DNA of 45,976 bases from Candidatus Rifleibacteriota bacterium (GTDB lineage Bacteria; Muiribacteriota; Ozemobacteria; Ozemobacterales; Ozemobacteraceae): positions 1 through 45,976 of the forward strand of contig JAAYNI010000089.1 of assembly GCA_012520995.1 (NCBI GenBank). The letters run 5' to 3'. Within the stretch, counting starts at the first letter, position 1. Each line of letters starts with the position of its first letter. A model generated the notes under the pieces. It was not told where the DNA came from. It saw nothing but the letters and a program-made list of their open reading frames with translations, and ran no database searches. This document shows positions 12,314 to 38,567 of this stretch, piece by piece. The position numbers and the translations under genes are program-made.

Positions 12314-12620
12314 CTAGTGCTGTATAACATCTAAAAGTTGCGTATTTAATATAAAGCAACCTAACAAACTCTTCAAGGCTATCTGTCTCAGCAACCGCAC
12401 TAGAGTGGTTAGTGGGTAGTGAAATTCTTTAGACCGATTTCTTGTCTTAATAATTACTATGCTTACTAATAAACAGCTGAAGGTCTGAAAAAAACAAATA
12501 TTGATAATACTTATATGTGCAATAAATGAAGAGAAAACATTGCAAATTTTGATCAAATAAAAATCTGTGTAATCTGTGTAATCTGTGGATAAAAAAGTTT
12601 TATTTGAAACACAGCACTAG
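12314..12620. repeat. Intergenic repeat, copy B: 307-bp element with terminal inverted repeats
   Basis: The element begins CTAGTGCTGT (12314-12323) and ends with the exact inverse ACAGCACTAG (12611-12620). The inner flanks CTAAAAGTT and AACTTTT (read inverted) extend the similarity. An internal CGCACTAG ending at 12403 makes its first 90 bp match the layout of the 90-bp unit at 38478-38567. Bases 12419-12549 recur inverted at about 23595-23725 with roughly six differences by eye. Three copies of AATCTGTG lie near the right end (12561-12590). The right-end CTAG supplies the TAG stop of the DnaJ-like gene. No transposase is present, so this is MITE-like. It fills the gap between the protease and DnaJ-like genes. 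Confidence 0.75.
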
Positions 12621-13477
12621 TATTTCAGGCCTGCTTCGGCAGCAAACTTTTCAAAAAGAGCTTTTTCTTGTTCTGTCAGATCTTTCGGAATGTTGATTTC
12701 AGCCGTTATAAACAAATCGCCGCCTGGAAAACCTTGTCCCGCAAGACGTAATACTGAGCCATTCTGAGTGCCTGGAGGAACTGTAACTATCAAGCTTTTG
12801 CCGCCAGGGTGTTTAAGCTTTACTTTGCTGCCCAAAACCGCCTGAGCTATGTTTATATAGATCTTAGTCTGCAAATTTCTGCCGACTATGGTAAAAGGGT
12901 CTTCATCTTCAATAGAAAGCCTAACTTTATTACCTTCTGCATCACGGATAATAGTACCAGACATGCTTCCTTCTGGTATAGTTAATATTTGAGTGCCGCT
13001 AGATAAACCCGTTGTCTCAACTCTTCCGCCAGCAAGCGCTATCGACAATGGCACTTTCAAAACCGGAATAGAGCGTTTTTTTGAAAAAGCCGAGCCGCGA
13101 TTAATTATGTTTTCAAAAGATGAGAAAGGTGTGGAAGAAGTAGAACTGGAGCCACCTCTAAACGAAAATCCACTGAATATGTTTTTTAAGAAGTCGCTGT
13201 CAACTCCAGAAGCAAACTCGCTGAAAGGCCCTTGCGAAGAGAAACCGCCAAAATTAAATGAAGAGCCTGCTTTTTGGGCTGCATCATATTTTTTGCGCTC
13301 TTCAGGCTTGCCTAATACTTCATAAGCTTCAGAAATCTTTTTAAACTTCTCTTCTGACTCTTTGGAACCTTGATTTACATCAGGATGATGTTTTTTAGCT
13401 AAAGCTCTGAAGGCTTTTTTTATTTCATCTTGGGTAGCAGTTTCTTTGACACCCAGTACATCGTAATAGTTTTCCAT
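12617..13477 (-). CDS. DnaJ-class co-chaperone without zinc finger (CbpA-like)
   Basis: Cytoplasmic Hsp40 that would stimulate a DnaK-type ATPase and present substrates. The J domain covers residues 1-68 with HPD at 31-33. A Gly/Phe/Ser-rich linker runs to about 125. The C-terminal substrate-binding domains follow, with blocks [25 protein letters not shown] and [14 protein letters not shown]. The four CxxCxGxG zinc repeats of true DnaJ are absent, so this is a type II/CbpA-like protein of 286 residues. It is transcribed from an extended -10 promoter only 6 nt from its ATG. Its TAG stop overlaps the repeat end CTAG. It may have a different native C-terminus if the repeat inserted within the gene. 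Confidence 0.9.
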
Positions 13478-13483
13478 GGTGCG

Positions 13484-13492
13484 ATTATATCA
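13484..13492 (-). promoter_or_regulatory. Extended -10 promoter of DnaJ-like gene, leaderless
   Basis: On the minus strand TGATATAAT (TG at 13491-13492, TATAAT at 13484-13489) lies 6 nt from ATG 13477. No Shine-Dalgarno site fits in that space. Transcription would start at or next to the A of the start codon. No convincing -35 is seen. Confidence 0.65.
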
Positions 13493-13532
13493 TACTTGGC
13501 ATCAAAAAAGGAGTTATTTTGCTATTATTTTA

Positions 13533-13541
13533 TGCTATAAT
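13533..13541 (+). promoter_or_regulatory. Extended -10 promoter of the 13562 gene
   Basis: TGCTATAAT (TATAAT at 13536-13541) lies 20 nt before ATG 13562, with a GGAG site at about 13552-13555 in between. It is divergent from the DnaJ-like promoter within an 84-bp region. No strong -35 is seen. Confidence 0.65.
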
Positions 13542-13561
13542 TGCTATGTTTGGAGTACTAA

Positions 13562-14338
13562 ATGCATAAATTTACCAATAAAACAAAGCCGCTTTTAATA
13601 TTTGCTATCGCAGCAATCTTTTTTTTATTTCTGCCAAATATAGCTTCAGCATGCGATGATACGTTGGTTTTATTGCTCACATCGCAAAATCCGAACAGTG
13701 TTTTCTCTAAAAGCATAAGAAATTTCATGTCATCACTGACAACCTTGGGAACAGCACTCAAATACACAACAAAAGATTCTTATCAAAAAGAACTATCAGG
13801 TGTTCTCTCCGCTTGGCTAAACTTCTCCCAGAACTTTATGCTCAATCCTCCTCAGGAGGCGAAAAACGACATTGAGTGGAGAAAAAAAATGACAGATGCG
13901 GGGCGACAAATAGCCCAAATTCGCAGAAATGTAGCAAACAAAAAATATGAGGAGGCTCACAACGGAGTTTTATCTCTCAGTTCATATATAGGCGTATTTT
14001 TTGAAGGCTTCGGGCTCTCTGACGACAACAAACTTTTTGTAGAAACTTCAGCATTCTTGGTTGAATTCGAAAAAAAACTAATAAACAAGCAATTTATACA
14101 GGCCTCTGAAGACATTCCAGCCATTAAAACCTACATTTCAAAGTTTGTTGAACTCCTGCCTGAAACGCAACGCGAAAGCTCAAGCACAAAACTATCAGAA
14201 TTAACTGTTGCCGTTCAAGATGGAATCAACAAGAAAACACCATTTGCTAAGCTCGACTCTTCTGTACAAGCTCTCAAATCAGAATTTGAAACCGTTCGTG
14301 CCAAAATTAAAATGAACGAATGGTTTTTAAAAGAATAA
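13562..14338 (+). CDS. Secreted helical protein of unknown family
   Basis: Not recognised. A 258-residue product with an N-terminal signal: MHKFTNKTKPLL, a hydrophobic core, then ASA followed by Cys at about residue 31. The -3 position is Ala, not Leu, so cleavage by signal peptidase I is more likely than lipoprotein processing. The mature part is almost wholly helical, rich in Lys, Glu and Ser, and has repeated amphipathic segments reminiscent of four-helix bundles. A GGAG site 6 nt upstream supports ATG 13562. The next gene, a CxxC thioredoxin-like protein, starts 18 nt after this stop, and a COG0701 permease follows. The trio probably forms an operon handling a metal, metalloid or thiol substrate (inference). 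Confidence 0.7.
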   Translation: MHKFTNKTKPLLIFAIAAIFFLFLPNIASACDDTLVLLLTSQNPNSVFSKSIRNFMSSLTTLGTALKYTTKDSYQKELSGVLSAWLNFSQNFMLNPPQEAKNDIEWRKKMTDAGRQIAQIRRNVANKKYEEAHNGVLSLSSYIGVFFEGFGLSDDNKLFVETSAFLVEFEKKLINKQFIQASEDIPAIKTYISKFVELLPETQRESSSTKLSELTVAVQDGINKKTPFAKLDSSVQALKSEFETVRAKIKMNEWFLKE

Positions 14339-14356
14339 TAGGCGGTCGAAAAACTT

Positions 14357-14626
14357 ATGTTAGAAGTTGTAGTTATTAAAAGTGCATCTTACTGCGTAAA
14401 CTGCACTGATGCTGAACGAATAGTCAATGAACTCGCAGAAAAATATCCTGACATAAAACCTGTAATTATGGTTACTGGAACCCCTGAATCCATGAAGTAT
14501 GGAATAGTCACAACGCCGGTAGTAGTCTTAGGCAAAAAAATATATTCAATGGGAAAACCTGTTATAAAAGCTAAAGTAGAAGGTTGGATAAAAAAAGAAC
14601 TCAAACTTCTCCAAGAAAAAAACTAG
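14357..14626 (+). CDS. Small thioredoxin-fold protein with CVNC motif
   Basis: 89 residues with a thioredoxin/glutaredoxin-like fold. The redox pair is C13-V-N-C16 after a short strand, and a cis-Pro loop GIVTTPVVV faces it. This matches the small redox-active disulfide protein family often encoded beside COG0701 permeases. It is probably cytoplasmic because no signal is present. It may deliver electrons or a thiol-bound metal to the permease. AGGCGG lies about 11 nt before ATG 14357. The TAG stop is followed 21 nt later by the permease start. Confidence 0.8.
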   Translation: MLEVVVIKSASYCVNCTDAERIVNELAEKYPDIKPVIMVTGTPESMKYGIVTTPVVVLGKKIYSMGKPVIKAKVEGWIKKELKLLQEKN

Positions 14627-14647
14627 CCATAAAAGGAGACAAACCGT

Positions 14648-15889
14648 TTGCTACAGTTTTTGCAAAGCCTAATATATTACACAGAAGGCGTTCTGATATA
14701 TTCAACCCTGGTGGAGTCCTCCGACAGTTTTTTGTCTTTTATAACCTTTTTCGCAAAAACATGGTTGCCATTTGTCTATAAACTGGGAGCTTTCATAGAA
14801 CCTGGACTCAATTCTCTATTCTCATTTATAGGCGAGCATCTCTTTTCAGGTATGGTTCCAGCTTTCTTTTTAGCTGGCGCCATCGGAGTCTTTCTCGATA
14901 AACAAAGAATCACCAAGTATATGGGAAAAGATGCCAAACCTTGGTATTCCTACCCCATAGCAGCTCTTTCGGGCGGCGTTTTAACAGTCTGCTCATGCGG
15001 CGTTATTCCTATTTTCACTAGCATCTGGTATCAAGGAGCTGGCATAGGTCCTGCTTTCACTTTTCTGATGGCATCGCCTGCTGTGAATATTATAGCTCTC
15101 TCCTACACTCACTCACTCTTGGGCAAAAACTTTCTGATCGGAAGAACACTCGCAGTTTTCTTTTCTGCTATACTCATAGGCCTAGGAATGAATTTCATAT
15201 TCAAAAAAGACGATCCGAGATTTCAAGATGAAACAGACCCAGACTTAATCTTTGTTGAAGAAGAGACTGGTTATACAGATATCCAACTGTTAATATTCTT
15301 TGCGATGCTGCTCTTTTTAATGATGCTGACAACCGGATTTCTGGATCCAGCGATTCTCAAGATAGCCGCTTTTCTTAGAATCACCTCAGACAGCTTCGCC
15401 TACAAATACTTTGCAAGGCTGACAGCCGCCATGCTTCAAGTAGTTTTTATAATATTCTATTCTAAGCATATTTTCGAGAAAGAAGAAATACAGCTTTGGT
15501 TAGACAAAACTAAAAACCTGGTTGTTCAAATACTCCCCAAAATACTCTTAGGCCTTTTCCTTTGTGGTGTTCTATTTGACAACAAACTGATTATCTCAAT
15601 GATGTCTATCTTCGACGACAACACAATTCTCAGCAATCTTTTGGCTTCAGTTGTAGGCTCCTTAATGTATTTCGGCACAATAGTCGGAGCTACCATTGTG
15701 CAAACTCTTCATAGTTGCGGCATGCACGCAGGCCCCTCTCTTGCCCTGCTACTCACTGGTCCTTCTGTGAGTCTTCCAAGCATCATAGCAATAGTGCCTA
15801 TTGTAGGCCGCAAAAAAGCTCTAGCATATCTCTCGCTTGTCATACTAACAGGAGCCTTGTCGGGATACATATACGGAAAATTTTTCTAA
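14648..15889 (+). CDS. COG0701 (DUF318/ArsP-like) permease
   Basis: Polytopic membrane permease of 413 residues in two homologous halves. The first half carries the signature VCSCGVIPI (Cys at about 115 and 117). The second carries LHSCGMHAGPSLALLLTGPSVSLPS. Members include ArsP-type exporters of organoarsenicals and SO_0444-type metal efflux proteins. The substrate cannot be told from the sequence. TTG 14648 is chosen because AGGAG lies 9 nt upstream, a strong site with no better ATG nearby. A charged loop in the middle (residues about 190-215) separates the halves. It follows the CxxC protein, consistent with redox-linked transport. Confidence 0.87.
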   Translation: MLQFLQSLIYYTEGVLIYSTLVESSDSFLSFITFFAKTWLPFVYKLGAFIEPGLNSLFSFIGEHLFSGMVPAFFLAGAIGVFLDKQRITKYMGKDAKPWYSYPIAALSGGVLTVCSCGVIPIFTSIWYQGAGIGPAFTFLMASPAVNIIALSYTHSLLGKNFLIGRTLAVFFSAILIGLGMNFIFKKDDPRFQDETDPDLIFVEEETGYTDIQLLIFFAMLLFLMMLTTGFLDPAILKIAAFLRITSDSFAYKYFARLTAAMLQVVFIIFYSKHIFEKEEIQLWLDKTKNLVVQILPKILLGLFLCGVLFDNKLIISMMSIFDDNTILSNLLASVVGSLMYFGTIVGATIVQTLHSCGMHAGPSLALLLTGPSVSLPSIIAIVPIVGRKKALAYLSLVILTGALSGYIYGKFF

Positions 15890-15944
15890 AGTTATGACTC
15901 CTTTCTTACGATATCTTTCTTATCCAATCAAGAAAGGCAGTCTA

Positions 15945-16232
15945 ATGAAAAATACGGCAAACATCCATGAAGAACGGCACAAACACGCCAACCTTGAAGC
16001 CCTTTTAGATGAAGTCAAACAAGAAGCAGAAACAGCAAATAAAAACTGGGAAGAAATGCAAGAGCGTCACAACAAAGCATTGCGTCTTTTGGCTCTGTCC
16101 TGCTTAAAAAATAAAATTCTTGAAACCAAGCTTGCTGAAATTCAAACAAGACATAGTGAGCTCTTGAGCGAATTCAACCGTCGGATTTGCGAAGACAGCG
16201 GAGACGATCTTCAGTTCTGCATAATTAACTGA
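15945..16232 (+). CDS. Small coiled-coil protein, unknown
   Basis: Not recognised. A 95-residue, soluble, strongly charged helical protein with Glu/Lys/His-rich heptads from about residue 5 to 75 (HANLEALLDEVKQEAETANK). It ends in an acidic tail with two Cys (ICEDSGDD, QFCIIN). GAAAGG about 7 nt upstream supports ATG 15945. An in-frame ATG at 15894 has no site and sits close to the permease stop. A strong hairpin terminator follows within about 15 nt. It could be the last gene of the permease operon. Confidence 0.65.
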   Translation: MKNTANIHEERHKHANLEALLDEVKQEAETANKNWEEMQERHNKALRLLALSCLKNKILETKLAEIQTRHSELLSEFNRRICEDSGDDLQFCIIN

Positions 16233-16246
16233 GAAAATAAACATAA

Positions 16247-16284
16247 AAAAAGAGAGAGAGTTCACAAGAACTCTCTCTCTTTTT
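16247..16284. terminator. Bidirectional Rho-independent terminator
   Basis: A 17-bp perfect stem (16247-16263 with 16268-16284) has an ACAA loop. Its arms are A-rich then AGAGAGAGAGTTC, so both strands end in T runs. It lies between convergent genes ending at 16232 and 16296. Confidence 0.9.
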
Positions 16285-16295
16285 ATTTACAAATT

Positions 16296-17219
16296 TTATG
16301 GTTCTGCTGCCAATTCTCTGACAGGAATAGCTGTCGTTATTATAGAGGAATTATTCATTTTCAGATTTTTATCTTTCGGAAAAGCTGTCTCCAGTGTAAT
16401 AGAAAGCAATGCAGTTTTTTTAGATTCCGCATGTGCTTTATAATCTACTTTAGCAGAGGCCGTATTAATATAAGAAGAGCCTTCGGAAGAAGAAGCATGA
16501 ATATACTTAACTATTTCGTTAATATTTATATTAATTTCAGTTACATCATGTAGAATTTCTCTACTATAAAGCTGGTCTTTCGAATCTTTGTTTTTAGCCG
16601 CTGCTATATATTGTTCATAGAGTTTCTTGCCGTCTAAAAATTCATTTGCGGGCTCTTTGGGAAATGTATAATCAAAACTGTATTGATTAAGATGTAAGGT
16701 GCCTTTTGCCCTCTTGTCTTTTGTCTTATCTTTGTCACAGGTTAACCTAAGGTCATTCCAAATAATAGTGCCTTTTGCTTCGCCAGAACCTCTACGCTCC
16801 GCGGAAGCTACAGGTATTATAGCAATAATCTGAGCCTTTCCTTCTTTAGGAACAATTTTGCCTGGAACAGCTGCTGCTGAGCAATAATCAAGAGTATTAT
16901 TCTTATCTAGCTTAAAAAGGCGACCTGAATAATTATAATGGTATCTAAAGTCAAACAAATGGATATTTTCAGTCTTTGTAGTTGGATTGACAATTACAAG
17001 GGAAGGATAAGAGGCCTTTGCAAAGGTATCAGAAATAATCCTAGAAGAGTTTCTAAGCTCTACTATCTGGGTTTGTGTCCAATTGCCTCTCAAAGCTGTT
17101 TTGCCAGCATATGAAAAGACCCCGTACATAGCAGCGGAAACAAGACCTGCTATCAATATGACCAACATAAGTTCGATCATGGTTACAGCTGTTTTTGTGT
17201 ATTTAAAAGTTCTGAACAT
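16296..17219 (-). CDS. Prepilin-like protein (PulG/GspJ-type N-terminus)
   Basis: Type IV pilin-like N-terminus: a basic leader, then A-V-T-M-I-E-L-M-L-V with Glu at mature position 5, and a long hydrophobic helix. The residue before the cleavage point is Ala, not the usual Gly. The rest is a 270-residue periplasmic domain of no recognised family, rich in Lys and Thr. ATG 17219 overlaps the upstream stop by one base (TGATG); the earlier in-frame TTG is less likely. It is the third gene of a coupled cassette with 17219-17821 and 17821-18531. It likely assembles into a pseudopilus or type II secretion-like fibre; the other machinery genes are not in this window. Confidence 0.78.
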   Translation of the reverse strand: MFRTFKYTKTAVTMIELMLVILIAGLVSAAMYGVFSYAGKTALRGNWTQTQIVELRNSSRIISDTFAKASYPSLVIVNPTTKTENIHLFDFRYHYNYSGRLFKLDKNNTLDYCSAAAVPGKIVPKEGKAQIIAIIPVASAERRGSGEAKGTIIWNDLRLTCDKDKTKDKRAKGTLHLNQYSFDYTFPKEPANEFLDGKKLYEQYIAAAKNKDSKDQLYSREILHDVTEINININEIVKYIHASSSEGSSYINTASAKVDYKAHAESKKTALLSITLETAFPKDKNLKMNNSSIITTAIPVRELAAEP

Positions 17220-17821
17220 CAAAAGTCACCCAATCCTACTGCAGAAACTGTAAATTCCTCCATAGACTCATACAGAAAATCTTTAGGATCCGCTCCCACA
17301 GTTATAGAATTCTCTTTACCTATGCGAGAAGAAACCTCAATTTTAAAGGTTGAAGTAGTTCCTGTACGCTTTGAAGAGGTTCCATCACTGGTTTTAGCCG
17401 TTGCTGTGCGCGTCAAACTTACTATAGTATAAAGTGCTTCATATGGAGAGCTGGTTTTAACGGTATCCAGATCCATTGAAAACAAATCAAAGTTATTTGC
17501 GGCCTCAGAAAACAAGAGAGAATCAAGTTGCGAATCATTGTTCGACTTTGCTGAGTCAAAAATATTGGCACCTGGAGCTTCATCGGCTTTTTTAGCAATC
17601 TCTCTCGGAAGCAGAATCAAGTGCATTTTTGCATGCTGTATAGCTGACTCTCCCATCAAATAAGCTTGGTATTGAGCAATGGTTTTCTTAGTCTGAGACT
17701 TAACCGATGAAGAAAGAGAAATAATCGAAAAGAGCAATCCAGCCATAATAAAAGCAAATATTAATATTATAGCTAACAGCATTCCTTCTTTTTTGTTTTT
17801 CAGTTTAAGTGAAGCCATCAT
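17219..17821 (-). CDS. Prepilin-like protein (PilX/GspK-like, lacks Glu5)
   Basis: About 200 residues. The leader KLKNKKEG is followed by MLLAIILIFAFIMAGLLF. Cleavage after Gly fits prepilin peptidase, but there is no Glu at position 5, as in GspK and PilX types that cap pilus tips. The helix runs into LSSSVKSQTKKTIAQYQAYLMGESAIQHAK, a typical PilX-like continuation. The soluble part is short and Ser/Thr-rich. The start ATG 17821 overlaps the upstream TGA, and the stop overlaps the downstream ATG, so all three genes are translationally coupled. Assignment as a minor pilin is by N-terminus only. Confidence 0.75.
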   Translation of the reverse strand: MMASLKLKNKKEGMLLAIILIFAFIMAGLLFSIISLSSSVKSQTKKTIAQYQAYLMGESAIQHAKMHLILLPREIAKKADEAPGANIFDSAKSNNDSQLDSLLFSEAANNFDLFSMDLDTVKTSSPYEALYTIVSLTRTATAKTSDGTSSKRTGTTSTFKIEVSSRIGKENSITVGADPKDFLYESMEEFTVSAVGLGDF

Positions 17822-18531: not shown

Positions 18532-18547
18532 TAGTTGAGTTTATTGC

Positions 18548-18644: not shown

Positions 18645-18651
18645 GATGGTT

Positions 18652-22191: not shown

Positions 22192-22638
22192 ATGGCTTTA
22201 CGAAGAAAAAACAGAGACAAAGGCTTTGCACTGGATCTTACCACCTGTTCAGACATTATTTTCACTCTGCTTTTGTTTTATATACTCACACAAAGCTTTG
22301 TGCCTCAAATCCAGCTAGCTCTTCCGTCCCTTGAAACTCCTGAAACTTTAAAGGAAACCAATATTATAAAGATTACCGTTGACTCTTCTTCCAATATCAC
22401 ATGGAACGACGTTCCCCTATCTTCGCCTTTAAGAAAAAAACAAATAAAAGACTTTTTTGAAGCTGCTCCGCATGATTCTGCAATATTGATATATACCCAT
22501 GTCGATGCTCCCGCAGGAATCTGTATTGAACTCTTAGACAAACTACAACAAGCCGGAGCAAAGGCCGTCTCCTTTGCTGGCACCTTTATTGATGAACCGC
22601 CTGAAGCAAATCCAAAAGAGAATCAGAGTGAACCTTGA
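22192..22638 (+). CDS. exbD: ExbD/TolR family biopolymer transport protein
   Basis: Partner of ExbB. A short cytoplasmic stretch RRKNRDKGFALDLT is followed by one membrane helix with the essential Asp (TCSDIIFTLLLFYILTQ). A periplasmic domain follows, with LALPSLETPETLKETNIIKITVDSSSNITWNDVPL and a segment AILIYTHVDAPAGICIELLDKLQQAGAKAVSF typical of ExbD/TolR. Start ATG is 3 nt after the exbB stop, so the two are coupled. Length 148 residues. The end overlaps the start of tonB. Confidence 0.87.
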   Translation: MALRRKNRDKGFALDLTTCSDIIFTLLLFYILTQSFVPQIQLALPSLETPETLKETNIIKITVDSSSNITWNDVPLSSPLRKKQIKDFFEAAPHDSAILIYTHVDAPAGICIELLDKLQQAGAKAVSFAGTFIDEPPEANPKENQSEP

Positions 22639-23512
22639 AGACAAAAGCCATCCAATAATTCATCCTCTGAAAATATTCGCATTGATTCTCGCGATTACAA
22701 TGCAATATTTGCTTTGTTGGCAACTAGAGACTTTTTTCTTTCAAACAAACACATATTCACCAAAAGCAAAAATTATTCAAATTGCTCTGCGCCACAAAAA
22801 TCCCCCTAAGCAAACCTCAATTGTCAAAACAGAGAATCCCCCTATCTTCATGCAACCTCCTAAATTGGAAAAGCCATCCCCTCCGCCTCCTATAGAAGAC
22901 ATTAAAACAAAGCCTCCCTTGGCTCCTGAGCAGCCGAAAATTCAGAAAAAGCCTATTCTCCCTCCTGTAGAAAAGCCTAAAAGTAAAAAGCCGGAAAAAA
23001 AACAAAAACCCGTAAAAACAGAACATAAAAAAAAGAACTCATCTGCTCTATTGTCTGAACAATCTCAGAAAAATGAAATTAAGGATTCAGAACAACCCAC
23101 ACGAACGACACAACCGCCCGAGACAACAACTTCCCCCCCTGCCCTTTATTCAAATCAATTCCAAGATATCCAAGATATCCAAGATATTTCACGCTCTTCT
23201 GAAGAAAACCCCTCTTACGTAAACTCGCCTTCCCTGACAGAAGCTTATTTGCTTCAAATATCCAAAATACTCAACCGAAATAAGAACTATCCTCAGAGAG
23301 CTCGCAATAGAAAAATTTCAGGTGATGTCGAAGTAACTTTTTTTATAGCCAGAAACGGAAAAGCAAATAAAATCAAAATCATTTCCTCTCCTGAGCCCAT
23401 ACTGTCAGACGCGGTAAAAAAAACTCTGACTTCAACGAGGTTCCCTTCGCCTCCCACGGACTGGGATAGCGAAAAACCCGTTTCCCTTACAGTCAGCTTT
23501 TCTTTACGCTAA
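22592..23512 (+). CDS. tonB: TonB-family energy transducer
   Basis: Links ExbB-ExbD to outer-membrane receptors. A basic N-terminus and one membrane helix (FALILAITMQYLLCW) lead to a long Pro/Lys-rich periplasmic spacer. The C-terminal TonB domain contains KNYPQRARNRKISGDVEVTFFIARNGKANKIKIISSPEP and ends near LTVSFSLR. Inside the spacer, D-I-Q-D-I-Q-D-I is encoded by three 9-bp tandem copies near 23163-23190. The start is uncertain: ATG 22592 overlaps exbD by 47 nt without a site; GTG 22628 overlaps by 11 nt with AAGAGA nearby. No TonB-dependent receptor lies in the window, so its cargo is unknown. Confidence 0.85.
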   Translation: MNRLKQIQKRIRVNLEDKSHPIIHPLKIFALILAITMQYLLCWQLETFFFQTNTYSPKAKIIQIALRHKNPPKQTSIVKTENPPIFMQPPKLEKPSPPPPIEDIKTKPPLAPEQPKIQKKPILPPVEKPKSKKPEKKQKPVKTEHKKKNSSALLSEQSQKNEIKDSEQPTRTTQPPETTTSPPALYSNQFQDIQDIQDISRSSEENPSYVNSPSLTEAYLLQISKILNRNKNYPQRARNRKISGDVEVTFFIARNGKANKIKIISSPEPILSDAVKKTLTSTRFPSPPTDWDSEKPVSLTVSFSLR

Positions 23513-23519: not shown

Positions 23520-23735
23520 CTAGTAGCCTGTAACATCTAAAACTTTTTTCTATCCGCAGATTACACAGATGACACAGATTTTTATTAGATAATAAATTTG
23601 CAATGTTTTCTCTTCATTTATTGCACATATAAGTATTATCTATATTTGTTTTTTTCAGAGCTTCAGCTGTTTATTAGTAAGCATAGCAATTATTAAGACA
23701 AGAAATTGAGTCTAAAGAATCTCACTGCCCACAAC
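23520..23735. repeat. Intergenic repeat, copy C (inverted relative to copy B)
   Basis: CTAG at 23520-23523 opens AGCCTG then TAACATCTAAAAC, which matches the right end of copy B read on the other strand. It continues with CCGCAGATTACACAG and ATGACACAGATT. Bases 23595-23725 match the inverse of 12419-12549 with about six differences. The far end (after about 23735) is not recognisable. The rest of the 521-nt gap to 24034 holds CATCTGTGTAATCTGTGGAT (23811-23830), then TTTCGTGTTTTTCGTGG at about 23878-23895. It also holds the promoter at 23970. No gene is seen in this gap. Confidence 0.7.
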
Positions 23736-23969
23736 CCACTGTTTGTTCTCTGTTTTAAAGAAAGCAATTTGAGGACAAAAGAATTTTGTCATTGGTTTCT
23801 TTATCTGCGGCCATCTGTGTAATCTGTGGATTAATATTTTCTGGAATTTTTATGCGGTTTTTGCTTTTTTCTTTTTTTTCGTGTTTTTCGTGGTTCCAAA
23901 AGGTATTAAAAGTTTTAGAGAAAATAAAAAATAAAAATCCGTTGCCATATTACGGATTTGGATTATCTA

Positions 23970-28783: not shown

Positions 28784-30403
28784 TTATTTAGGCCAGTCAA
28801 TTATAATTTTATCTTTTCCAGGAAAAGCCAAGTCTGTAGGACTTGTAAAATCATCGCTGACCAGACCTTCTGCACTGCCTGGCATAAGCTTGGATAAAGG
28901 CTTGCCAATCAAGGGCCAATCGGCAACAACCTCTCTGCGATCATTCACCCAGTCGATAATTTCCATTACAGTGTCAATACCTGCAGGCAATTCAACATTC
29001 TGTTGTCTTGCCAAACCGCCCACCAGTTCGCCGATAGAATTAGTATGCTTGTAAATAGGCATAAAGAGCTGGAATGCTATTTTCAGGAATTCTTTCTTAG
29101 AAACTCCAGCCATTTGAACAATTTTATTTACGTCTTTCCTGATAGCGTTTGCTATGCGAAGCTTAGCCGCCTTTTCTCTTACAAAACCAATTCCAAATGG
29201 AGTTTTAAACCTGCCTGAAGCCTTGTCAGCTTTGTATTGTTGGCTAGCCTTCTTATAATTAGGCATAGCTTTGTCAGCTTTTATAAGATTAACTGTCCTG
29301 TTAAGACGATCGTAAGCCTTTTTATCAGGAAAAGCTTTATCGAAAACGGCACACTGAGGAATAACGGTATAAATAAGAAACTTCTGCAACTTATCAAAGT
29401 CCGGATTCGACATGTACTCCGTAGTAAACTGAACAATTTCATCCGAAAGTTTGAAGCGATCCTTAGGCTGAAGACTGTCTATCACTGATTGTAAAGCTCT
29501 AACAAGACCGTCTCTTTTGGGATCCTTGTTAGCTATTGAAAGACCTGCGCTCTTATATGCTTTATAAACAAGCTCACTGCAATAAAAAGCTCCATCGTTG
29601 TCCTTGTCAGTAAATGCGTAATCATAGGGCTTGCCGAGCTGCTGATAGGCGTATGACAAAGCCTTATTGATAATTCTTTGGGCTTCGGCTTCTGGCATAC
29701 CCTGCGTCGGACGCACTATACGAAAACGTCCATAATGACTGAACTCTTCAAACCACATCACCATTCTTATCTGATCTTTTGTGGAATCGCCTGAATAGCC
29801 TGTTATACCCATAGCTTCAATCATAACCGGAGGAGAAACATGAGTAACCAACGTGGCGTGGAAGTAAGGCCCTTTAGTCATCATGCAAATCATATTATTT
29901 TCTATATCTTTCGGACTATCAGGACCGTTAAGAACTACGTCGCCGACTTTACAAGCCTGTATCATTTCAACGTAGTCAGCATCTTTACGGATCCTTCTGG
30001 CCCATCTCAGCATGTGATCTATATTGCCGAAATCTTTTGAAAATTGTGAAGGTTTGACATTGGGAAAAAAGCTTTTGCAAAGACGTATTGAAGCTTCTTT
30101 TCCGCCTTTATCACCAGTATAAGGAGCTTTTCTTTCTTTACACAACTTAAGTTGTGGATAATAAATTGGCAAAAGCTTCATCCGGATCAACTCAATTTCT
30201 TCTTCCGTAAGGTTTTCCAAATAAGCTTCTTCTATCTGATCTAAGGGATTGTATTGAGAGGTTTCATCAACCGCCTCTGAAATAACCTCTACATTTTCAT
30301 CTGAATCAATGCTAACCTCAAAAGGTGAAACAGCAAAGATTGGTGATGAAAAGCCCAAGAGGAGTGATATTAAAAATATGGAAACAGCTTTTTTTCTTAT
30401 CAT
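28784..30403 (-). CDS. Secreted YiiX/YebB-type NlpC/P60 cysteine hydrolase
   Basis: Exported 539-residue protein; signal MIRKKAVSIFLISLLLGFSSPIFA is cleaved near residue 24. An acidic linker precedes a circularly permuted papain-like core. Candidate catalytic residues are H182 (PYFHATLVTH), E196 (MIEAMGI) and C275 (FYCSELVYKAY), the order seen in YiiX-type enzymes. VGDVVLNGPDS and QLGKPYDY are family blocks. The 250-residue C-terminal helical region is not recognised. CGGAG 7 nt upstream supports ATG 30403 over TTG 30421. These hydrolases act on cell-wall peptides or lipids; substrate here unknown. A paralogue with two nonsense codons lies directly upstream. Confidence 0.82.
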   Translation of the reverse strand: MIRKKAVSIFLISLLLGFSSPIFAVSPFEVSIDSDENVEVISEAVDETSQYNPLDQIEEAYLENLTEEEIELIRMKLLPIYYPQLKLCKERKAPYTGDKGGKEASIRLCKSFFPNVKPSQFSKDFGNIDHMLRWARRIRKDADYVEMIQACKVGDVVLNGPDSPKDIENNMICMMTKGPYFHATLVTHVSPPVMIEAMGITGYSGDSTKDQIRMVMWFEEFSHYGRFRIVRPTQGMPEAEAQRIINKALSYAYQQLGKPYDYAFTDKDNDGAFYCSELVYKAYKSAGLSIANKDPKRDGLVRALQSVIDSLQPKDRFKLSDEIVQFTTEYMSNPDFDKLQKFLIYTVIPQCAVFDKAFPDKKAYDRLNRTVNLIKADKAMPNYKKASQQYKADKASGRFKTPFGIGFVREKAAKLRIANAIRKDVNKIVQMAGVSKKEFLKIAFQLFMPIYKHTNSIGELVGGLARQQNVELPAGIDTVMEIIDWVNDRREVVADWPLIGKPLSKLMPGSAEGLVSDDFTSPTDLAFPGKDKIIIDWPK

Positions 30404-30549: not shown

Positions 30550-32214
30550 TTATTTAGGCCAGTCATATATAATTTTATCGTTTGAAACAGCCGCCAAATC
30601 CATAGGGCTGGTAAAGTCATCAGTAACTTTGCCTTCCGCAGAACCTGGCATTATGCTCGCTAAAAGCCCACCGATTACTGGCCAATCAGCAACTACCGTA
30701 CGCCTGGCATTCAGCCAGTCTACTATTTCCATCAGGGTTTTTATGCCTGAAGGAAGCTGCATATTTTGTTGCCTTGCCATACCTCCAAGCAAATCTCCAA
30801 CTGAGCCCATATGTTGATAAACAGGGAGAAAAAGCTGAAATACTATTTTAACCAACTCTCTCTTTTGGACTCCCGCCGTTTTAGCAAGCTTATCAATATC
30901 TTGGAAAACAGCAGTTCCTATACGAAGCTGAGCCGCTTTTTCTCGTGCTATTCCTATCCCAAAACCTGTTTTATACTTGCCAGCATCTCTTTCCTCATTA
31001 TATTGCTGCTGAGCCTTTTTGTAATTTACCATAGCTTTGTCGTTCTTTAGCAAGTCTATGGTTCTATTCAGGCGATCATATGCTTTTTTGTCAGGAAAAG
31101 CTTTGGCAAAAACGCCACAATTTGGAACAACCGTATAAACCAAGAATTTTTGCAGCTTGTCGAAATCAGGATTGGCTGTGTATTCATTAGCAAAAGACAT
31201 TATTTCATTCGCAAGAGTAAAGCGATCGCGAGGCTGCAAGCTATCTACAACAGCCTGTAAGGCAGTAACAATTGAATCTCTTTGAGGGTTTTTGGCAGCA
31301 ACATTAAGACCAGTACTCTTGTATGCCTTATAAACCAGCTCGCTGCAATAAAAAGCTTTGTCCCCGTCACTATCCGTAAAACCATAGTCATAAGGCTTTC
31401 CCAGCTGTTCATAGGCATAAGATATAGCACCTTCTATAGCTTTTCGAGCATCCGCTTCTGCCATGCCATTAGTAGGGCGAACTATTCGAAAACGGCTATG
31501 ATAACCGAACTGTTCATACTACATCAGCATTCTGACTTGATCCGTTGTAGGATCTGAGGAATCTCCAGTTATACCCATAGCTTCAATCATGACCGGAGGA
31601 GAAACATGCGTAATCAATGTAGCATGGAAATAAGGACCTTTAGTCAGCATGCAAATCATGTCATCTTCCATTACAGTCGGTCTATTCGGGCCAGATATTA
31701 CAGCATCGCCAACTTTGCAAGCTTGTATCATTTCTATCAAAGCTTTGTCATTTTGAACTTCTCTAGCCCAATTCAGCATATAATCCATATTTCCGAAGTT
31801 TTTTGAAAACTGTCCAGGTTTAACATTCGGGAAGAAGCTCTTGCAAAGCTCTATTGAAGCTTCTATTCCGCCTTTCGCGCCCATATATGGAGGTTTCTGT
31901 TCCTTGCATTGTTTCAACTGTGGGTAGTAATCAGGCAGAAGTCCTATTTGAAGGAATTTCATTTCTTCTTCCGTAAGATTATCAAGAAAATCTTCGTCTA
32001 TTACAGCAGTTCCAAGCTCGGATTCCGCATCATTGTCAATGCCAGAAGCACTTTTATTAATTTCTGTTGCTTGTGAGCCAGAGATGCTTTCGGTCGTAAC
32101 TGTTCCAGTTTGTTCCGTATAGCCAACATCGAATGGAGAAGACGCAAAAATTGGGAAGGAAACTCCCAATCAAAACAAACATGTCAATACTGCAATAAAT
32201 CTTTTTGCTATCAT
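30550..32214 (-). pseudogene. YiiX-type hydrolase paralogue interrupted by two in-frame stops
   Basis: The frame runs from ATG 32214 (CGGAG about 11 nt upstream) to TAA at 30550. It aligns over its whole length with the intact gene at 28784-30403, about 555 codons. Codon 15, in the signal peptide, is TGA at 32170-32172 where the intact copy has Leu (TTA to TGA is one change). Codon 232 is TAG at 31519-31521 where the intact copy has Trp (TGG to TAG). No frameshift is seen. Catalytic blocks FHATLITH, IEAMGI and FYCSELVYKAY are kept. Protein conservation is high, so loss is recent or the stops are read through. Other genes here end normally at TGA and TAG. Confidence 0.8.
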
Positions 32215-32366
32215 ACTATTAATTACTCCGCTTATTGTCTTTGAGTTTAATACTCCGATTTTACACAAAAGTTTGCAGAGAACATAAGCCCTCTTTGATT
32301 TTATCCTTTGTTTTTCTCACAAAATATAATAATATTCCTTAAGATCTTTTAAAAAGAGACTTGAAA

Positions 32367-33542: not shown

Positions 33543-33981
33543 TTCGGAAACAATCCAAGTTGCTGCTGCTGTCATAGTAAATGATGGCAAGGTTTTGCTT
33601 GGAAAAAGACAAGGCGGCCTATTAGATGGTAAGTGGGAATTTCCAGGAGGAAAAATCAAGCCGTTTGAAACATCTCATGAAGCTGCAATACGTGAAATCA
33701 AAGAAGAGTTGGGCATATCAATATGCCCACTTAAAACTGTTTACAGCTTAGAACACTCATATCCGGATAAAACAGTCAACATTCATTTTTGTATTTCTGT
33801 GCTAAATGATTCAGAAAAAGCCATTGGCACCTTAAAAGCCCATTCTGAAGCAGCATGGTTTTCACCCAGCTCTTTACCTGAGACAACAATGTGTGAAGCA
33901 GACAGACAAGCCTTGTCACATATAGACTTTGAGAAGATATTTGAACTAATTGAAAAAAAGAAAATAAAAGGATACTTATGA
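33532..33981 (+). CDS. Nudix (MutT-type) hydrolase
   Basis: 149 residues. Starts MRNNSETIQVAAAVIVNDGKVLLGKRQG and contains a full Nudix box at about residues 38-60 (GGKIKP..E......REIKEELGI), including R-E-I-x-E-E for metal binding. The WEFPGGKI opening and single-domain length match MutT/8-oxo-dGTP pyrophosphatase-type enzymes. It overlaps rlmI-like by 11 nt and overlaps buk by ATGA, so all three are co-translated. Likely a nucleotide-pool sanitiser. Confidence 0.87.
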   Translation: MRNNSETIQVAAAVIVNDGKVLLGKRQGGLLDGKWEFPGGKIKPFETSHEAAIREIKEELGISICPLKTVYSLEHSYPDKTVNIHFCISVLNDSEKAIGTLKAHSEAAWFSPSSLPETTMCEADRQALSHIDFEKIFELIEKKKIKGYL

Positions 33982-35063
33982 AAAACCATAAAAATGTAAT
34001 AGTGATAAACCCGGGGGCAGCAACAACAAAGATTGCACTTTACACAGATAAAAAGGAACTTTGGTCTGACGAACTTTTTCATGCCAAAGAAGAAATAGCG
34101 GTTTTCAAGAGCAGCATAGAACAGCTTGAATATAGAAAAAACAAAGTATTGGAAGCTCTTGAGCAAAAAGACTTTGATTTAGCAGATTTAGATGCCGCAA
34201 TAGGAAGAGGCGGCCCAGTCAAACCATTGCCAGGTGGCGTATACAAAGTAGGGCCTGAGCTTTTGAAAGACCTTTCTAATCCCGGCGCGGTTGATCATGC
34301 TTCCATACTAGGCGGTCTCATCGCCTACGAACTTTCTAAAATCGCAAATGTGCCAGCATATATTGCCGACCCAATATCAGTTGATGAATTTGACGACTTG
34401 GCCAGAATCTCAGGTTTACCTGAAATAAAGCGCCCTGCCCTTTCTCACGCTCTAAACGTAAAAGCTGTCGCCTTAGAAATAGCTGAAAAACAAGGCAAAA
34501 AACTAGAGGAAGTCAACTATATAGTTGCCCATTTAGGAAGCGGCTTCACTATATCACCTTTAAGGAACGGCAGAATAATTGATACTAACAGCGCAAATGA
34601 CGCAGGTCCCATGACACCCATGAGATCAGGCACTTTGCCAAACCAAGCCTTCGTAAAATTATGTTATAGCGGCGAGTATACTTACAAGGAAATGATGAAT
34701 AAACTTCTCAGGAACTCGGGCCTGACAGGTCATTTAGGCACCTCAGATGTCAAAGAAATTTCTGCAAGAATTGCCAATGGAGATGAAAAAGCAAGGCTAT
34801 GTTTAGAAGCTATGGCTTACCAGATTTCAAAAGACATAGGAGCTTGTGCAGCCATTCTCAAAGGCGATGTAGACGCAATAATATTAACAGGCGGTGTAGC
34901 CTATGACAAAAACGTGGTAGGATGGATCACTGAACGCGTTTCTTTTATAGCCCCTATCATAGTCAGGCCTGGACAAAAAGAAATGCAAGCCTTGGCAGAT
35001 CATGCTTTCAATGCTCTGGATGGCACTGAAATTGCAAATGATTACGCAACTTCTGGAGTATAA
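33978..35063 (+). CDS. buk: Butyrate kinase
   Basis: Converts butyryl-phosphate and ADP to butyrate and ATP, the last step of the Ptb-Buk butyrate route, in the cytoplasm. 361 residues, ASKHA fold. Landmarks are NPGAATTKIALY at the N-terminus, GRGGPVKPLPGGVY, HLGSGFTIS, and NDAGPMTPMRSGTLP. AILTGGVAYD-type ATP-binding is present as IILTGGVAYDKN. ATG 33978 overlaps the Nudix stop. ptb follows 5 nt after its stop with an SD GGAG at 35054-35057, so the two form one transcriptional unit. An isobutyrate kinase variant cannot be ruled out. Confidence 0.93.
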   Translation: MKNHKNVIVINPGAATTKIALYTDKKELWSDELFHAKEEIAVFKSSIEQLEYRKNKVLEALEQKDFDLADLDAAIGRGGPVKPLPGGVYKVGPELLKDLSNPGAVDHASILGGLIAYELSKIANVPAYIADPISVDEFDDLARISGLPEIKRPALSHALNVKAVALEIAEKQGKKLEEVNYIVAHLGSGFTISPLRNGRIIDTNSANDAGPMTPMRSGTLPNQAFVKLCYSGEYTYKEMMNKLLRNSGLTGHLGTSDVKEISARIANGDEKARLCLEAMAYQISKDIGACAAILKGDVDAIILTGGVAYDKNVVGWITERVSFIAPIIVRPGQKEMQALADHAFNALDGTEIANDYATSGV

Positions 35064-35067
35064 AACA

Positions 35068-35952
35068 ATGTCTTTTCAAGAAATAGAAAAAAAACTATTA
35101 CATAACAAAGTAAATTTAGCAGTATGTATGCCTGAAGACGCAAACTCACTGACTGCCGCCAAAGATGCCACTTATTCTGGCTATGTGAATTGTATACTCG
35201 TAGGTTCACCTAACAAAATCAGAAGCATACTTGATGAAATTGCCCCTGAATACTCTCCCGAGATCGTTGCCGCAGAAACTCCTGAAGAAGCGGCGGCCAA
35301 ATCAGTTGAACTCGTAAAAACAGGCAAAGCCGCTGCCCTGATGAAAGGAACTATTTCAACCCCTATTTTACTAAAAGCTGTTTTAAACAAAGACACTGGA
35401 ATTAGACAACAAAAAATTCTTTCTCATGTCTTGATTTTCGAACATAACTCAAACCTGAAGTTTTTAACCGATGGCGGAATGATCCCGGAACCTACTTTGG
35501 AACAGAAAGCAGAACTGATAAACAATGCTAAACATGCCGCACAAAAGCTTGGCATAGACATTGTAAGAGTTGCGGTTCTCGCTGCGGAAAACAAAGTGGA
35601 TTTGAGCAATGAACATTCTTGCCATGCAGCCATTCTGGCTCAAATGTCCAAACTGGGACAATTTGGCGAAGACTGTATCATAGAGGGTCCTATGACACTT
35701 GACGTGGCAATGTTTCCAGAGATAGCTTCCCAAAAAAGCATCTTCAATGAAGTGGCTGGAAAAGCTGATATACTCCTAACCTCAGACATAGACACAGGCA
35801 ATGTCCTGGGCAAATCTCTTATATATCATGCAAACACTCTATGCGCAGGTCTTATAATAGGAGCCTCTTGCCCTATTATACTCTTGTCCCGAGCTGACAG
35901 TGACAAGGTTAAGTTAAACTCTATAAAAACCGCATTAGCTATTGGAGCATAA
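35068..35952 (+). CDS. ptb: Phosphate butyryltransferase
   Basis: Converts butyryl-CoA and phosphate to butyryl-phosphate. 294 residues, the usual length. Family blocks are ALMKGTISTPILLKAVLNKDTG, LTDGGMIPEPTLEQKAELINNA, EGPMTLDVAMF and ADILLTSDIDTGNVLGKSL. ATG 35068 is chosen with GGAG 10 nt upstream; the TTG-type ORF extension to 35002 lies within buk in another frame. The acyl preference may be butyrate, isobutyrate or related, since Pta/Ptb share this fold, but its coupling to buk supports butyryl. Confidence 0.93.
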   Translation: MSFQEIEKKLLHNKVNLAVCMPEDANSLTAAKDATYSGYVNCILVGSPNKIRSILDEIAPEYSPEIVAAETPEEAAAKSVELVKTGKAAALMKGTISTPILLKAVLNKDTGIRQQKILSHVLIFEHNSNLKFLTDGGMIPEPTLEQKAELINNAKHAAQKLGIDIVRVAVLAAENKVDLSNEHSCHAAILAQMSKLGQFGEDCIIEGPMTLDVAMFPEIASQKSIFNEVAGKADILLTSDIDTGNVLGKSLIYHANTLCAGLIIGASCPIILLSRADSDKVKLNSIKTALAIGA

Positions 35953-35964
35953 TTCTCTTGCATT

Positions 35965-36267
35965 ATGAAAGCAACCAGAAGAAGCCAAGTAAAGAATCTC
36001 CTGAAAATTCTTAACTTTCAAAATTCGGAAATTCAACCCTTGACTCCTAATAAAAAGGGCACACCTCCAACCGAAAAAAAAGACACGCTAAAGCCTGCCA
36101 AATGCAGACAATGCAACCATTTTTTCATAACTTGGGAAAGATCTGTGCCCTATGGATGTGAAGCCTACGGCTTTAAATCCGCAAAACTCCCTTCTATATC
36201 CGTAAAAGAAGTCTCTGGAGAGCCTTGCAACCTTTTTAAACAGAAACAGACACCTGCCAAATACTAG
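35965..36267 (+). CDS. Cys-rich small protein (CxxC zinc-ribbon-like), unknown
   Basis: 100 residues. A basic N-terminus with a Pro/Lys linker is followed by a conserved-looking core CRQCNHFFITWERSVPYGCEAYGFKS and an end block GEPCNLFK. Two C-x-x-C-like and two further Cys suggest a zinc site. Similar short CxxC-HFxxTW-PYGC proteins occur in many bacteria, function unknown. No Shine-Dalgarno site precedes ATG 35965, which is 12 nt after ptb, so it may be translated by coupling. The TAG stop (36265-36267) lies in CTAG as at other repeat edges. Confidence 0.75.
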   Translation: MKATRRSQVKNLLKILNFQNSEIQPLTPNKKGTPPTEKKDTLKPAKCRQCNHFFITWERSVPYGCEAYGFKSAKLPSISVKEVSGEPCNLFKQKQTPAKY

Positions 36268-36480
36268 TGAACAGTGCTCAGTGAACACCGTGGACAGTGA
36301 AATTTTAGAACTCAATCACTGAAACTAACAACTGCTTTAACAAGGTAGTAAATAAGCGTTTTTTTGTCTTTTAGTTGCTTCGAATCTTCTGTCCAGTGCC
36401 TACTAATCCCAGTCCGCAGAGCAAAGCGTTGGTAATATGCGGACAAATATCCAATCTTCTTACTCGCACTCGCCATGCAC
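36264..36480. repeat. Intergenic degenerate repeat region, copy E
   Basis: Within the 370-nt gap to murC. It begins CTAGTGAACAGTGCTCAGTG, a degenerate start unlike the five CTAGTGC copies beyond the first six bases. AACTGCTTTAACAAGGTAGTAAATAA at about 36329-36354 recurs as ACTGCTTTAAGAAGCTCGTAAATAA at about 38631-38656. An AGTGCCTACTAATCCC tract and a CACTCGCCATGC stretch follow. No ORF is convincing. The promoter at 36500 closes the gap. Confidence 0.45.
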
Positions 36481-36499
36481 TATAAGCATAATCACATTA

Positions 36500-36528
36500 T
36501 TGCATTTAATACTCTTTTATGTTACCAT
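36500..36528 (+). promoter_or_regulatory. Promoter of murC (extended -10)
   Basis: TTGCAT (36500-36505), 17 bp, then TACCAT (36523-36528) with TG at 36520-36521. Leader of about 100 nt to TTG 36638. Confidence 0.55.
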
Positions 36529-36637
36529 CTACACCACTTCAGCTGCCTAGAAAAATCTGGTAAGTGAAACGCAGAAAACTGCCGATATATTCCATGGCGA
36601 AATTCACAAAACAGCAAGAAGGGAGAGCCGTCAGATC

Positions 36638-38056
36638 TTGAACTGCCCTAAACATCTTCACTTCATTGGTATAGGGGGAATCGGCATGAGCGGCCTGGCC
36701 AGAATCTATGCCTCAAAAGGCTATAACGTCAGCGGCTCAGATCGTTCCAGCAATACCCAAACACATGATCTAAAGCTTGCAGGTGTAATAGTGTATGACA
36801 TGCACTCCTCGGAAAATCTGCCGTTAGTCGATGATCTCGCCGTTGTTGTAAGCACAGCTATACCTGAAAATAATCCAGAACTAATTGAAGCTAAAAGACG
36901 CGGCTTGAGAATTCTTCACAGATCCGACTTGCTTGCTAACCTTATAAACAGCCATGCCTTCAGTATCGCTGTAGCAGGGTGTCACGGAAAAACCACGGTT
37001 TCATCTATGCTTTCCTCTATTTTCGTATCAGCAGGCAAAGACCCGACTTGCGTTGTAGGCGGATATGTAAATGAACTCAAAGGCAATTGCCACACTGGTT
37101 CCTCTGATATTCTAATAGCTGAGGCTGATGAAAGCGACGGCACTTTTCTAAAGTATAAACCGACACATGCTATTATCACGAATGTAGACAATGACCACAT
37201 AGAACATTACTCAACACTAGAAGCAATAATAAGAGCCTTTGAATCCTTCGCCGCCAACATTGAGCAAGAAGGCAAACTCTATTTGTGCAATGACAGCCCA
37301 ATTGCCAGAAACCTCCTATTACCTGAAGAACTGGATATTGTCTCCTATGGAATAGACATTCCTTCAGACTATTCAGCAGAAAACATCACTTATCACCCCT
37401 TTGGTTCCTCTTTTGACTGTATCCATAGAGGACAAAAATTAGGTACAATAACCTTGGCCGTGCCTGGCAAGCATAATATTTTGAACGCATTGGCAGCCGT
37501 ATCTGTCTCACTGGACTTCGGCATATCATTTGAACAAATAACCTCCGCTCTATCCGTTTTCGCTGGAGCAGGACGCAGATTTGAGCTCAAAGGCCGCTAT
37601 GAAGGTATAACTGTAATAGACGATTACGGACACCATCCAAATGAAATCAAAGCAACCTTGGAAGCAGCAACTACCCTGGGTGCTGAAAGAATTGTCGTTG
37701 TTTTCCAGCCACACAGATACACACGAACTCTATTCCTTTCCAATGAGTTCGGAAGATGTTTTGATAATTGCGATAAACTTTTCATAACAGATATATATCC
37801 TGCCTCTGAAAAACCTATTCAAGGCGTTACAAGCAGAATCATTTTGGACAGCATGCCAGTTTCAAACAGACGTAAGGTCAAGATGGTAAAGAACGTGGAA
37901 GACGCCAAATATCTCCTGATGGACTATCTAAAGCCAGGAGACGTGGTTTTTACAATAGGAGCAGGTTCAATTACTGAATTAGGTCACCAGGTTTTAGAAT
38001 CAATCAAAGCACGTAACAGCGTAGCACCTATGGCAATAAACGCTGCTGCAGTTTAA
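36638..38056 (+). CDS. murC: UDP-N-acetylmuramate--L-alanine ligase
   Basis: Adds L-Ala to UDP-MurNAc in peptidoglycan synthesis, cytoplasmic. 472 residues; three Mur domains. Landmarks: N-terminal HFIGIGGIGMSGLARIY, the ATP loop GCHGKTTVSSML at about residues 112-123, DNDHIEHY, and HPNEIKATL with the C-terminal QPHRYTRT. TTG 36638 is preceded by GGGAG about 12 nt upstream; no ATG fits. It stands apart from other mur genes, which are not in the window. Confidence 0.94.
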   Translation: MNCPKHLHFIGIGGIGMSGLARIYASKGYNVSGSDRSSNTQTHDLKLAGVIVYDMHSSENLPLVDDLAVVVSTAIPENNPELIEAKRRGLRILHRSDLLANLINSHAFSIAVAGCHGKTTVSSMLSSIFVSAGKDPTCVVGGYVNELKGNCHTGSSDILIAEADESDGTFLKYKPTHAIITNVDNDHIEHYSTLEAIIRAFESFAANIEQEGKLYLCNDSPIARNLLLPEELDIVSYGIDIPSDYSAENITYHPFGSSFDCIHRGQKLGTITLAVPGKHNILNALAAVSVSLDFGISFEQITSALSVFAGAGRRFELKGRYEGITVIDDYGHHPNEIKATLEAATTLGAERIVVVFQPHRYTRTLFLSNEFGRCFDNCDKLFITDIYPASEKPIQGVTSRIILDSMPVSNRRKVKMVKNVEDAKYLLMDYLKPGDVVFTIGAGSITELGHQVLESIKARNSVAPMAINAAAV

Positions 38057-38067
38057 AGAGGTAAAAA

Positions 38068-38178
38068 ATGGTTTTACTATCAGTTCTGATTTGTTTCTCA
38101 GTAGCTATATTTTTGTCTAAAGCTTGCGTTTTCGTAGGTTTTAAACTCTTAGATAAAATAAAAGCATCTTACCGCTAG
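38068..38178 (+). CDS. Tiny membrane protein after murC, ends in a CTAG repeat boundary
   Basis: A 36-codon ORF with AGAGG about 7 nt before ATG 38068. Product MVLLSVLICFSVAIFLSKAC, one hydrophobic helix, then VGFKLLDKIKASYR. The TAG stop at 38176-38178 is in the CTAG that opens repeat D1. The last codons form one arm of a 17-bp perfect inverted repeat with D1 (38149-38165 with 38183-38199), so it may be only a terminator-like hairpin region. Coding status is uncertain. Confidence 0.4.
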   Translation: MVLLSVLICFSVAIFLSKACVFVGFKLLDKIKASYR

Positions 38179-38199
38179 TGCTGCTTTTATTTTATCTAA
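38149..38199 (+). terminator. 17-bp inverted repeat after murC
   Basis: TTAGATAAAATAAAAGC (38149-38165) and its exact inverse at 38183-38199 form a 17-bp AT-rich stem with a 17-nt loop. It straddles the start of repeat D1. It may act as murC's terminator, or reflect repeat structure. Confidence 0.45.
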
Positions 38200-38481
38200 A
38201 AGTTTCGTATTTGTTTTTCAAACTTCACAAGACAATATCCGCTTATAAGATCACGCCATGATAAGTGGTGCGTAGCGGGTGGCGAGTTGAATTGTTTAGC
38301 TCCCCCTAGCATCGAACATCAGCATCTGTCCTTAATCAGAGGCTAGGGCGAAAATTGTGATTATGCGGTAGCAGAATGCAATTTTTGCCCAATTTTGCCC
38401 TCATCTGTGTGAATCTGTGTCCATCTGTGGATATAAATAAATGTACCCGATAACAAACTTTTAGCTGCAACAAAATACTAG
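38175..38481. repeat. Intergenic repeat, copy D1: 307-bp element
   Basis: Begins CTAGTGCTGC and ends ACTAG at 38481; the inverse of the right end (CTAGTATTTTG, then TGCAGCTAAAAGTTT) mirrors the left end (CTAGTGCTGCT, then TATCTAAAAGTTT) imperfectly. Length 307 equals copy B. Three ATCTGTG units lie near the right end (38402-38429). A CCATGATAAGTGGTGCG to GTGGCGAG stretch lies inside. The right-end CTAG is shared with D2. Confidence 0.65.
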
Positions 38482-38567
38482 TGCTGCTTTTTCTCTAAAA
38501 GTTACCCGTAAAATCTTATCTCGCGTTTTAACCGATTTGTTTATTTCAGATGCTACAGTCGCACTAG
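38478..38567. repeat. 90-bp repeat unit (copy D2)
   Basis: Begins CTAGTGCTGC and ends GTCGCACTAG; CTAGTGC is the exact inverse of GCACTAG. Length is exactly 90 bp, like the first part of copy B (12314-12403). TCTAAAAGTT occurs at the same offset in both. It shares its first CTAG with the end of D1, so the two copies are fused at one CTAG. Confidence 0.7.

Follow-up and report, generated by a model that had tools for sequence, protein, structure and literature searches.

Transposase-less CTAG-ended inverted repeats and their placement on stop codons in a Candidatus Rifleibacteriota genome

Here, we describe a family of short intergenic repeats in the genome of a Candidatus Rifleibacteriota bacterium (GenBank assembly GCA_012520995.1; 2.84 Mb, 101 contigs, 96.4% complete). 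Five copies (A, B, C, D1, and D2) lie in contig JAAYNI010000089.1 (45,976 nucleotides, contig C53 in our set, hereafter the window). The repeats are short, noncoding, multicopy, free of a transposase gene, and bounded by terminal inverted repeats; they are probably miniature inverted-repeat transposable elements (MITEs), and their ends frequently coincide with native stop codons.

Copy B (12314 to 12620, plus strand; end scores, 36.5 and 33.1) was complete, with CTAG at both ends. It opened with a 90-bp hairpin module running from CTAGTGC to GCACTAG (12314 to 12403; predicted terminal stem, z −2.15), followed by a degenerate G/T-rich tandem stretch, AGTGGTTAGTGGGTAGTGA (12404 to 12422), and, further in, the motif ATCTGTGTAATCTGTGTAATCTGTGGATA (12561 to 12595), which on the reverse strand reads TTATCCACAGAT and contains the DnaA-box-like TTATCCACA. 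The CTAG end of this copy coincides with the stop codon (TAG, 12619 to 12617) of a DnaJ-like gene (open reading frame 12617 to 13477, minus strand), whose PF01556 (DnaJ C-terminal domain, DnaJ_C) match extends to position 152 of 152. Copy D1 (38175 to 38481, plus strand) was also complete, with 6 extra bases in its left end, and its interior from about position 38264 was a high-copy core found 84 to 99% identical at about 30 other places. The complete copy D2 (38478 to 38736, plus strand; end scores, 29.9 and 20.0; hairpin module, 38478 to 38567) shares the CTAG at 38478 to 38481 with D1, and 3 bp separate its far end from the stop of an M16 peptidase gene (38740 to 41307, minus strand).

The other two copies were partial. 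Copy A (10026 to 10130, minus strand as judged from module order; end score, 33.9) consists of the end TTAGTGCTTTGTAACATCTAAAAGTT, then CTATCCACAGAT, an GATTTTAAGC/GCTTAAAATC hairpin, and a G-rich stretch; its other end was not found. A zinc-ribbon (FmdB-like) gene (9763 to 10029, plus strand; 88 amino acids, PF09723 matched over 41 of 41 positions) has its in-frame stop in the TAG (10027 to 10029) of copy A's terminal TTAG. Copy C (23520 to 23740, minus strand) is inverted relative to B, with the end CTAGTAGCCTGTAACATCTAAAACTT at 23520 and 92% identity over 203 bp (B positions 91 to 289); a TonB_C gene (22574 to 23512) stops 7 bp ahead of it.

A sequence-only reading of the window had proposed a family with 307-bp and 90-bp members. 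B and D1 do both measure 307 bp with inverted ends; the equal length is a coincidence, since the two have common ends but different interiors (57% identity in a gapped global alignment) and lengths vary widely elsewhere in the family. The supposed 90-bp unit does run from CTAGTGC to GCACTAG in both B and D2 and is only the left module: D2 has a matching inverted end at 38736 and is a 259-bp element. The likeness claimed for five left ends held in part, as the end at 10026 begins with TTAG, that at 23520 begins with CTAGTAGCC and belongs to the other end type, and that at 38175 holds the 6 extra bases.

Stretches taken from the host genome yielded at least 149 distinct element ends, all sharing an end profile of about 26 bases (family ends, CTAGTGCTGTGTTGCA and CTAGTAGACTGTTGCA). 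A position profile derived from 107 ends, in nearly all of which TA is central, detected B and D2 at either end, D1 at its right end, and A and C at their outer ends; it missed the left end of D1 because of the 6 bases inserted there. A genome-wide search with one 25-base end (up to 3 mismatches) returned 52 matches, with 0 for the reversed control, which puts the family far above chance, and the second end type (CTAGTAGWCTGT...) returned 72. CTAGTGC by itself was not significant in the window (6 observed versus 4.1 expected), in contrast to the full end of about 26 bases. Separately, CTAG was depleted in a 446-kb sample of the host genome that included the window (485 found versus about 1,622 expected from base composition).

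Outside this genome, the same 25-base end gave 0 matches in 95 relatives, 23 of them from the host's own family. A relaxed end pattern produced isolated matches only in 381 further genomes, and those inspected (L211, within a parB gene, L212, L213, and L215) were chance. Viral contigs searched with four end patterns had no match, and plasmid and phage searches yielded chance matches only, among them a 21-base match in Vibrio. There was no Rfam match within the window and no match at sequence level in a literature search, so the earlier statement that the repeats were not recognized from known families was fair.

The 24 complete copies measured 77 to 572 bp (median, 282), with terminal inverted repeats of about 26 bp and, in 18 of them, CTAG at both ends. 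The usual order was an inverted end, a hairpin module of 86 to 92 bp, a degenerate G-rich tandem stretch, a variable core, the motif ATCTGTGTnnATCTGTGGATA, and the other inverted end. The module, 86 to 92 bp long in 22 copies, starts with CTAGTGC, finishes with GCACTAG, and is predicted to fold on itself (z −0.6 to −5.3 across the 14 copies folded); the G-rich stretch comes after nearly all of the 22 listed modules. Sixteen of 148 ends adjoined another copy and shared one CTAG with it, D1 and D2 among them. Cores 84 to 99% identical were joined to quite different left modules, and therefore modules were exchanged, most simply, it would seem, by recombination in the shared G-rich stretch. One could instead suppose that cassettes (the 90-bp hairpin and a second unit of about 200 bp) are joined or exchanged at CTAG by a site-specific recombinase, and the module's own closing CTAG, the different left modules on near-identical cores, and the single CTAG between neighbors fit that idea. 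We regard it as very unlikely, given that at the inner CTAG the second unit lacks a separate end and that recombination in the G-rich stretch also accounts for the exchange.

Units of the G-rich stretch (AGTGG/GTGGCGAGTGG/GGGAGTAGGG, degenerate) occurred in or beside most copies in either orientation (in the window, 10235 to 10260, 12404 to 12422, 38262 to 38285, and 38566 to 38592), and the stretch is a possible recombination site between copies. The motif CCACAGATnnACACAGAT, which in the host carries the DnaA-box-like TATCCACA, was seen in the window at 12561 to 12595, 38400 to 38435, 23553 to 23580, and 10068 to 10083. It numbered 67 in the host, 22 in genome G028, 11 in genome G001, and a few in genomes of other families, with 0 for the reversed control; outside the host it was not seen within a CTAG element and was often in tandem. 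This motif is a repeat that recurs across distant families.

Genes met the elements mostly in one frame. Counting genes of at least 100 codons, 39 (with 39 distinct C termini) entered element ends in the frame that uses the terminal TAG as its stop, and the remaining two frames together accounted for 4 (binomial p=6e-15; expectation under random gene disruption, 1/3 per frame). Ends lay on a stop codon in 43 of 139 cases versus 9 of 144 approaches at unoccupied noncoding CTAG sites in the 446-kb sample (Fisher p=7e-8), and 1 to 12 bp past a stop in 25 of 139 versus 8 of 144 (Fisher p=0.0014). The four bases were YTAR in 42 of the 43 stop-codon ends (35 CTAG, 5 TTAG, and 2 CTAA); CTAG was present at just 12 of 44 TAG stops in the genome sample. 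An orientation bias (end type GC on stops more than end type AG) was dropped, as letter-based end typing was unreliable.

Most tested genes with an element at the stop appear intact and full length, as judged from profile matches. Matches reached 336/337 in an asparaginase, 443/445 in a sugar transferase, 166/166 in a chromate transporter, 174/175 at a Ca-ATPase C terminus, 141/141 in a uracil-DNA glycosylase (UDG), and 152/152 in DnaJ_C, and that of a heptaprenyl diphosphate synthase component reached the end of the family model; those of CYTH, RsmG, and TilS ended before the model end and are less informative on intactness. The presence of CTAG at native stops means that CTAG predated the element; this is the chief reason for regarding CTAG as target and not as element sequence. 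With CTAG on both sides and a preexisting target, the CTAG would therefore have been duplicated.

Of the neighboring genes, 86 were oriented toward an element and 39 away from it (p=3e-5). Certain intergenic repeats of enterobacteria have been proposed to act at mRNA ends, and a hairpin immediately behind a stop codon could likewise stabilize or end the mRNA, with selection for that function producing the stop-codon excess. The gene orientations and the predicted hairpins, that of the 90-bp module and a stronger one described below for a second host, would suit such a role. We think it improbable all the same: no intrinsic-terminator pattern was found in or beside B, D1, or D2, and avoidance of promoters alone yields the same 3′ bias.

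An exact-pattern scan of GTDB r220 (84,980 species, possibly without the record of the host itself) found one other record, the Coriobacteriia metagenome-assembled genome (MAG) Emb289P3 (WQXH01; G096). This genome, which probably belongs to another phylum than the host, had 9 end matches, including complete 167-bp elements with the ends CTAGTGGTCTGTTACAACTAAAAAG. The element is a near-perfect 167-bp palindrome with CTAG ends that closely resemble those of the host family, predicted to fold at −100 kcal/mol into an almost perfect hairpin, and 2 of the 9 matched ends lay on stops of open frames (243 and 304 codons). The sequence-only reading had included neither the placement on stop codons nor the modular structure with its hairpin nor a second host.

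Taken together, the elements are probably MITEs, nonautonomous DNA transposons with the palindrome CTAG as integration site; they would be mobilized in trans by a CTAG/YTAR-specific DDE transposase and would duplicate their target. Here the initial proposal of a MITE-like family using CTAG is supported by the inverted ends, about 150 of them, the strict terminal CTAG, and the use of native stop codons. A transposase supplied in trans would recognize the inverted ends of about 26 bp and cut CTAG (more loosely, YTAR), and after repair CTAG would stand on both sides of the element. Insertion at a gene's own C-TAG stop would keep that stop intact, since TAG is part of the target and the duplicate lies next to the element; insertions at coding CTAG sites would break genes. 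Copies would thus accumulate on or just after stops, where they do no harm, and be lost elsewhere, and this loss of harmful insertions would, most simply, be the main source of the stop-codon excess. Alternatively, the machinery may be actively drawn to gene 3′ ends, preferring CTAG at or just past stops; if true, the same safe-haven strategy operates in two distantly related hosts. We rate this as distinctly unlikely. The excess over unoccupied CTAG sites is measurable, so targeting and selection can be tested against each other.

We infer a DDE enzyme from the inverted ends, the short palindromic target, and mobility in trans, in keeping with known transposon biology; it would probably, or at least possibly, be of the IS5 kind. 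The assembly has a sole DDE_Tnp_1 gene, which is part of a single-copy IS5-family element on contig C93 (G000:C93:4372-5226 region; L089 1164-2016), 853 bp long, with a 251-amino-acid transposase and TA on both sides within YTAG (T-TA-G). Copies on plasmids of Providencia and Proteus were 94.5 to 98% identical to this element, which is therefore probably a recent arrival. It was rejected as parent of the family, having different ends, a single copy, and that plasmid identity. Partial matches to it also occurred on Pasteurellaceae plasmids, and a decayed copy of the CTAG family lies beside it. Its end and that of the Coriobacteriia element have YTAG...GGTCTGTT in common, with one inserted base; this partial likeness (YTAG, then GGYCTGTT) is at most a hint.

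Mobilization by an IS630/Tc1-type enzyme that duplicates TA within CTAG, after the manner of RUP and IS630-Spn1, would agree with the central TA of nearly all ends and with TA-ended elements being the common type of bacterial MITE (PMC2229807). We consider it unlikely, as no DDE_3 (PF13358, IS630) domain was matched anywhere in the host assembly. The duplication itself would be of TA or of CTAG; unequal end flanks did not separate the two. The REP-like alternative raised at the outset, with REP/BIME-like repeats moved by a Y1 transposase (TnpA-REP/RAYT, IS200/IS605 relatives), is largely refuted and close to negligible. The repeats are indeed short, intergenic, high in copy number, and hairpin forming, but Y1_Tnp (PF01797) had no match in the 96.4%-complete host genome, and the elements are bounded by genuine inverted repeats, with CTAG at either terminus, instead of carrying a hairpin on one side.

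Several observations weigh against the CTAG-specific transposon interpretation. The expected full-length element, with a transposase and the family's ends, was not found in the assembly, in the 381 other genomes, or in the GTDB r220 exact-pattern scan, although the repeats break the 101-contig assembly. The one IS5 copy has ends that differ from the family's and is 94.5 to 98% identical to plasmid copies from other genera. No site lacking the element was observed, and duplication of the target is thus deduced; a few copies had unequal four-base flanks (CTAG..CTAA and CTAG..TTAG). Under a stricter gene-calling rule in the unselected 446-kb sample, 3 of 21 ends lay on a CTAG stop, a proportion compatible with, but below, 31%.

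If CTAG is the target as proposed, duplication of a stop-codon-containing target on insertion offers a transposon a simple route to abundance without harm to its host, as the protein is unchanged, and about 40 genes display such a landing directly. For annotation, gene ends in genomes of this kind would often mark transposon boundaries. Elsewhere in the window, two direct copies of 240 bp (29996 to 30235 and 31762 to 32001; 73% identical) within neighboring minus-strand genes are probably paralogous domains.

Correia elements of Neisseria number about 100 or more copies. In the available accounts, they and RUP of Streptococcus pneumoniae (about 100 or more copies; PMC2229807) resemble the present family in being intergenic, in having inverted ends, and in using a target with TA; those accounts describe neither strictness for CTAG nor landing on stop codons, and RUP is linked to IS630-Spn1, whose type of transposase was not found in the host assembly. 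QMITE2 of Coxiella burnetii (PMC5896051) is likewise a MITE near gene 3′ ends, with one stop-codon case discussed. In that case the protein is lengthened by the element or the stop arose through an indel, whereas in the present family dozens of genes retain their native stop. The host's own IS5-family copy differs from the MITE family in its transposase, single copy, end sequence, and recent exchange with Providencia/Proteus plasmids, although its end, TTAGGGTCTGTTG, resembles the Coriobacteriia element end, CTAGTGGTCTGTT, save for one inserted base and the first base. The closest known element and best precedent is MITEPsy1 of Pseudomonas syringae pv. phaseolicola. According to the available part of its description (PMC3189936), transposition of MITEPsy1 was demonstrated by experiment, with CTAG or YTAA as the sequence duplicated, and a transposase of the IS5 family (ISPsy2) is held responsible. 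It differs from the present family in its size (100 bp), copy number (6), end sequence (GGAAGGTCTGAAAAAGCC), and interruption of genes by two copies, and stop-codon landing is not mentioned in that part of the description. As there described, it is like the family here in being short and without a transposase and in having inverted ends (18 nucleotides in MITEPsy1) and a CTAG target, and the YTAR target of such IS5-derived MITEs recurs here in 42 of the 43 stop-codon ends.

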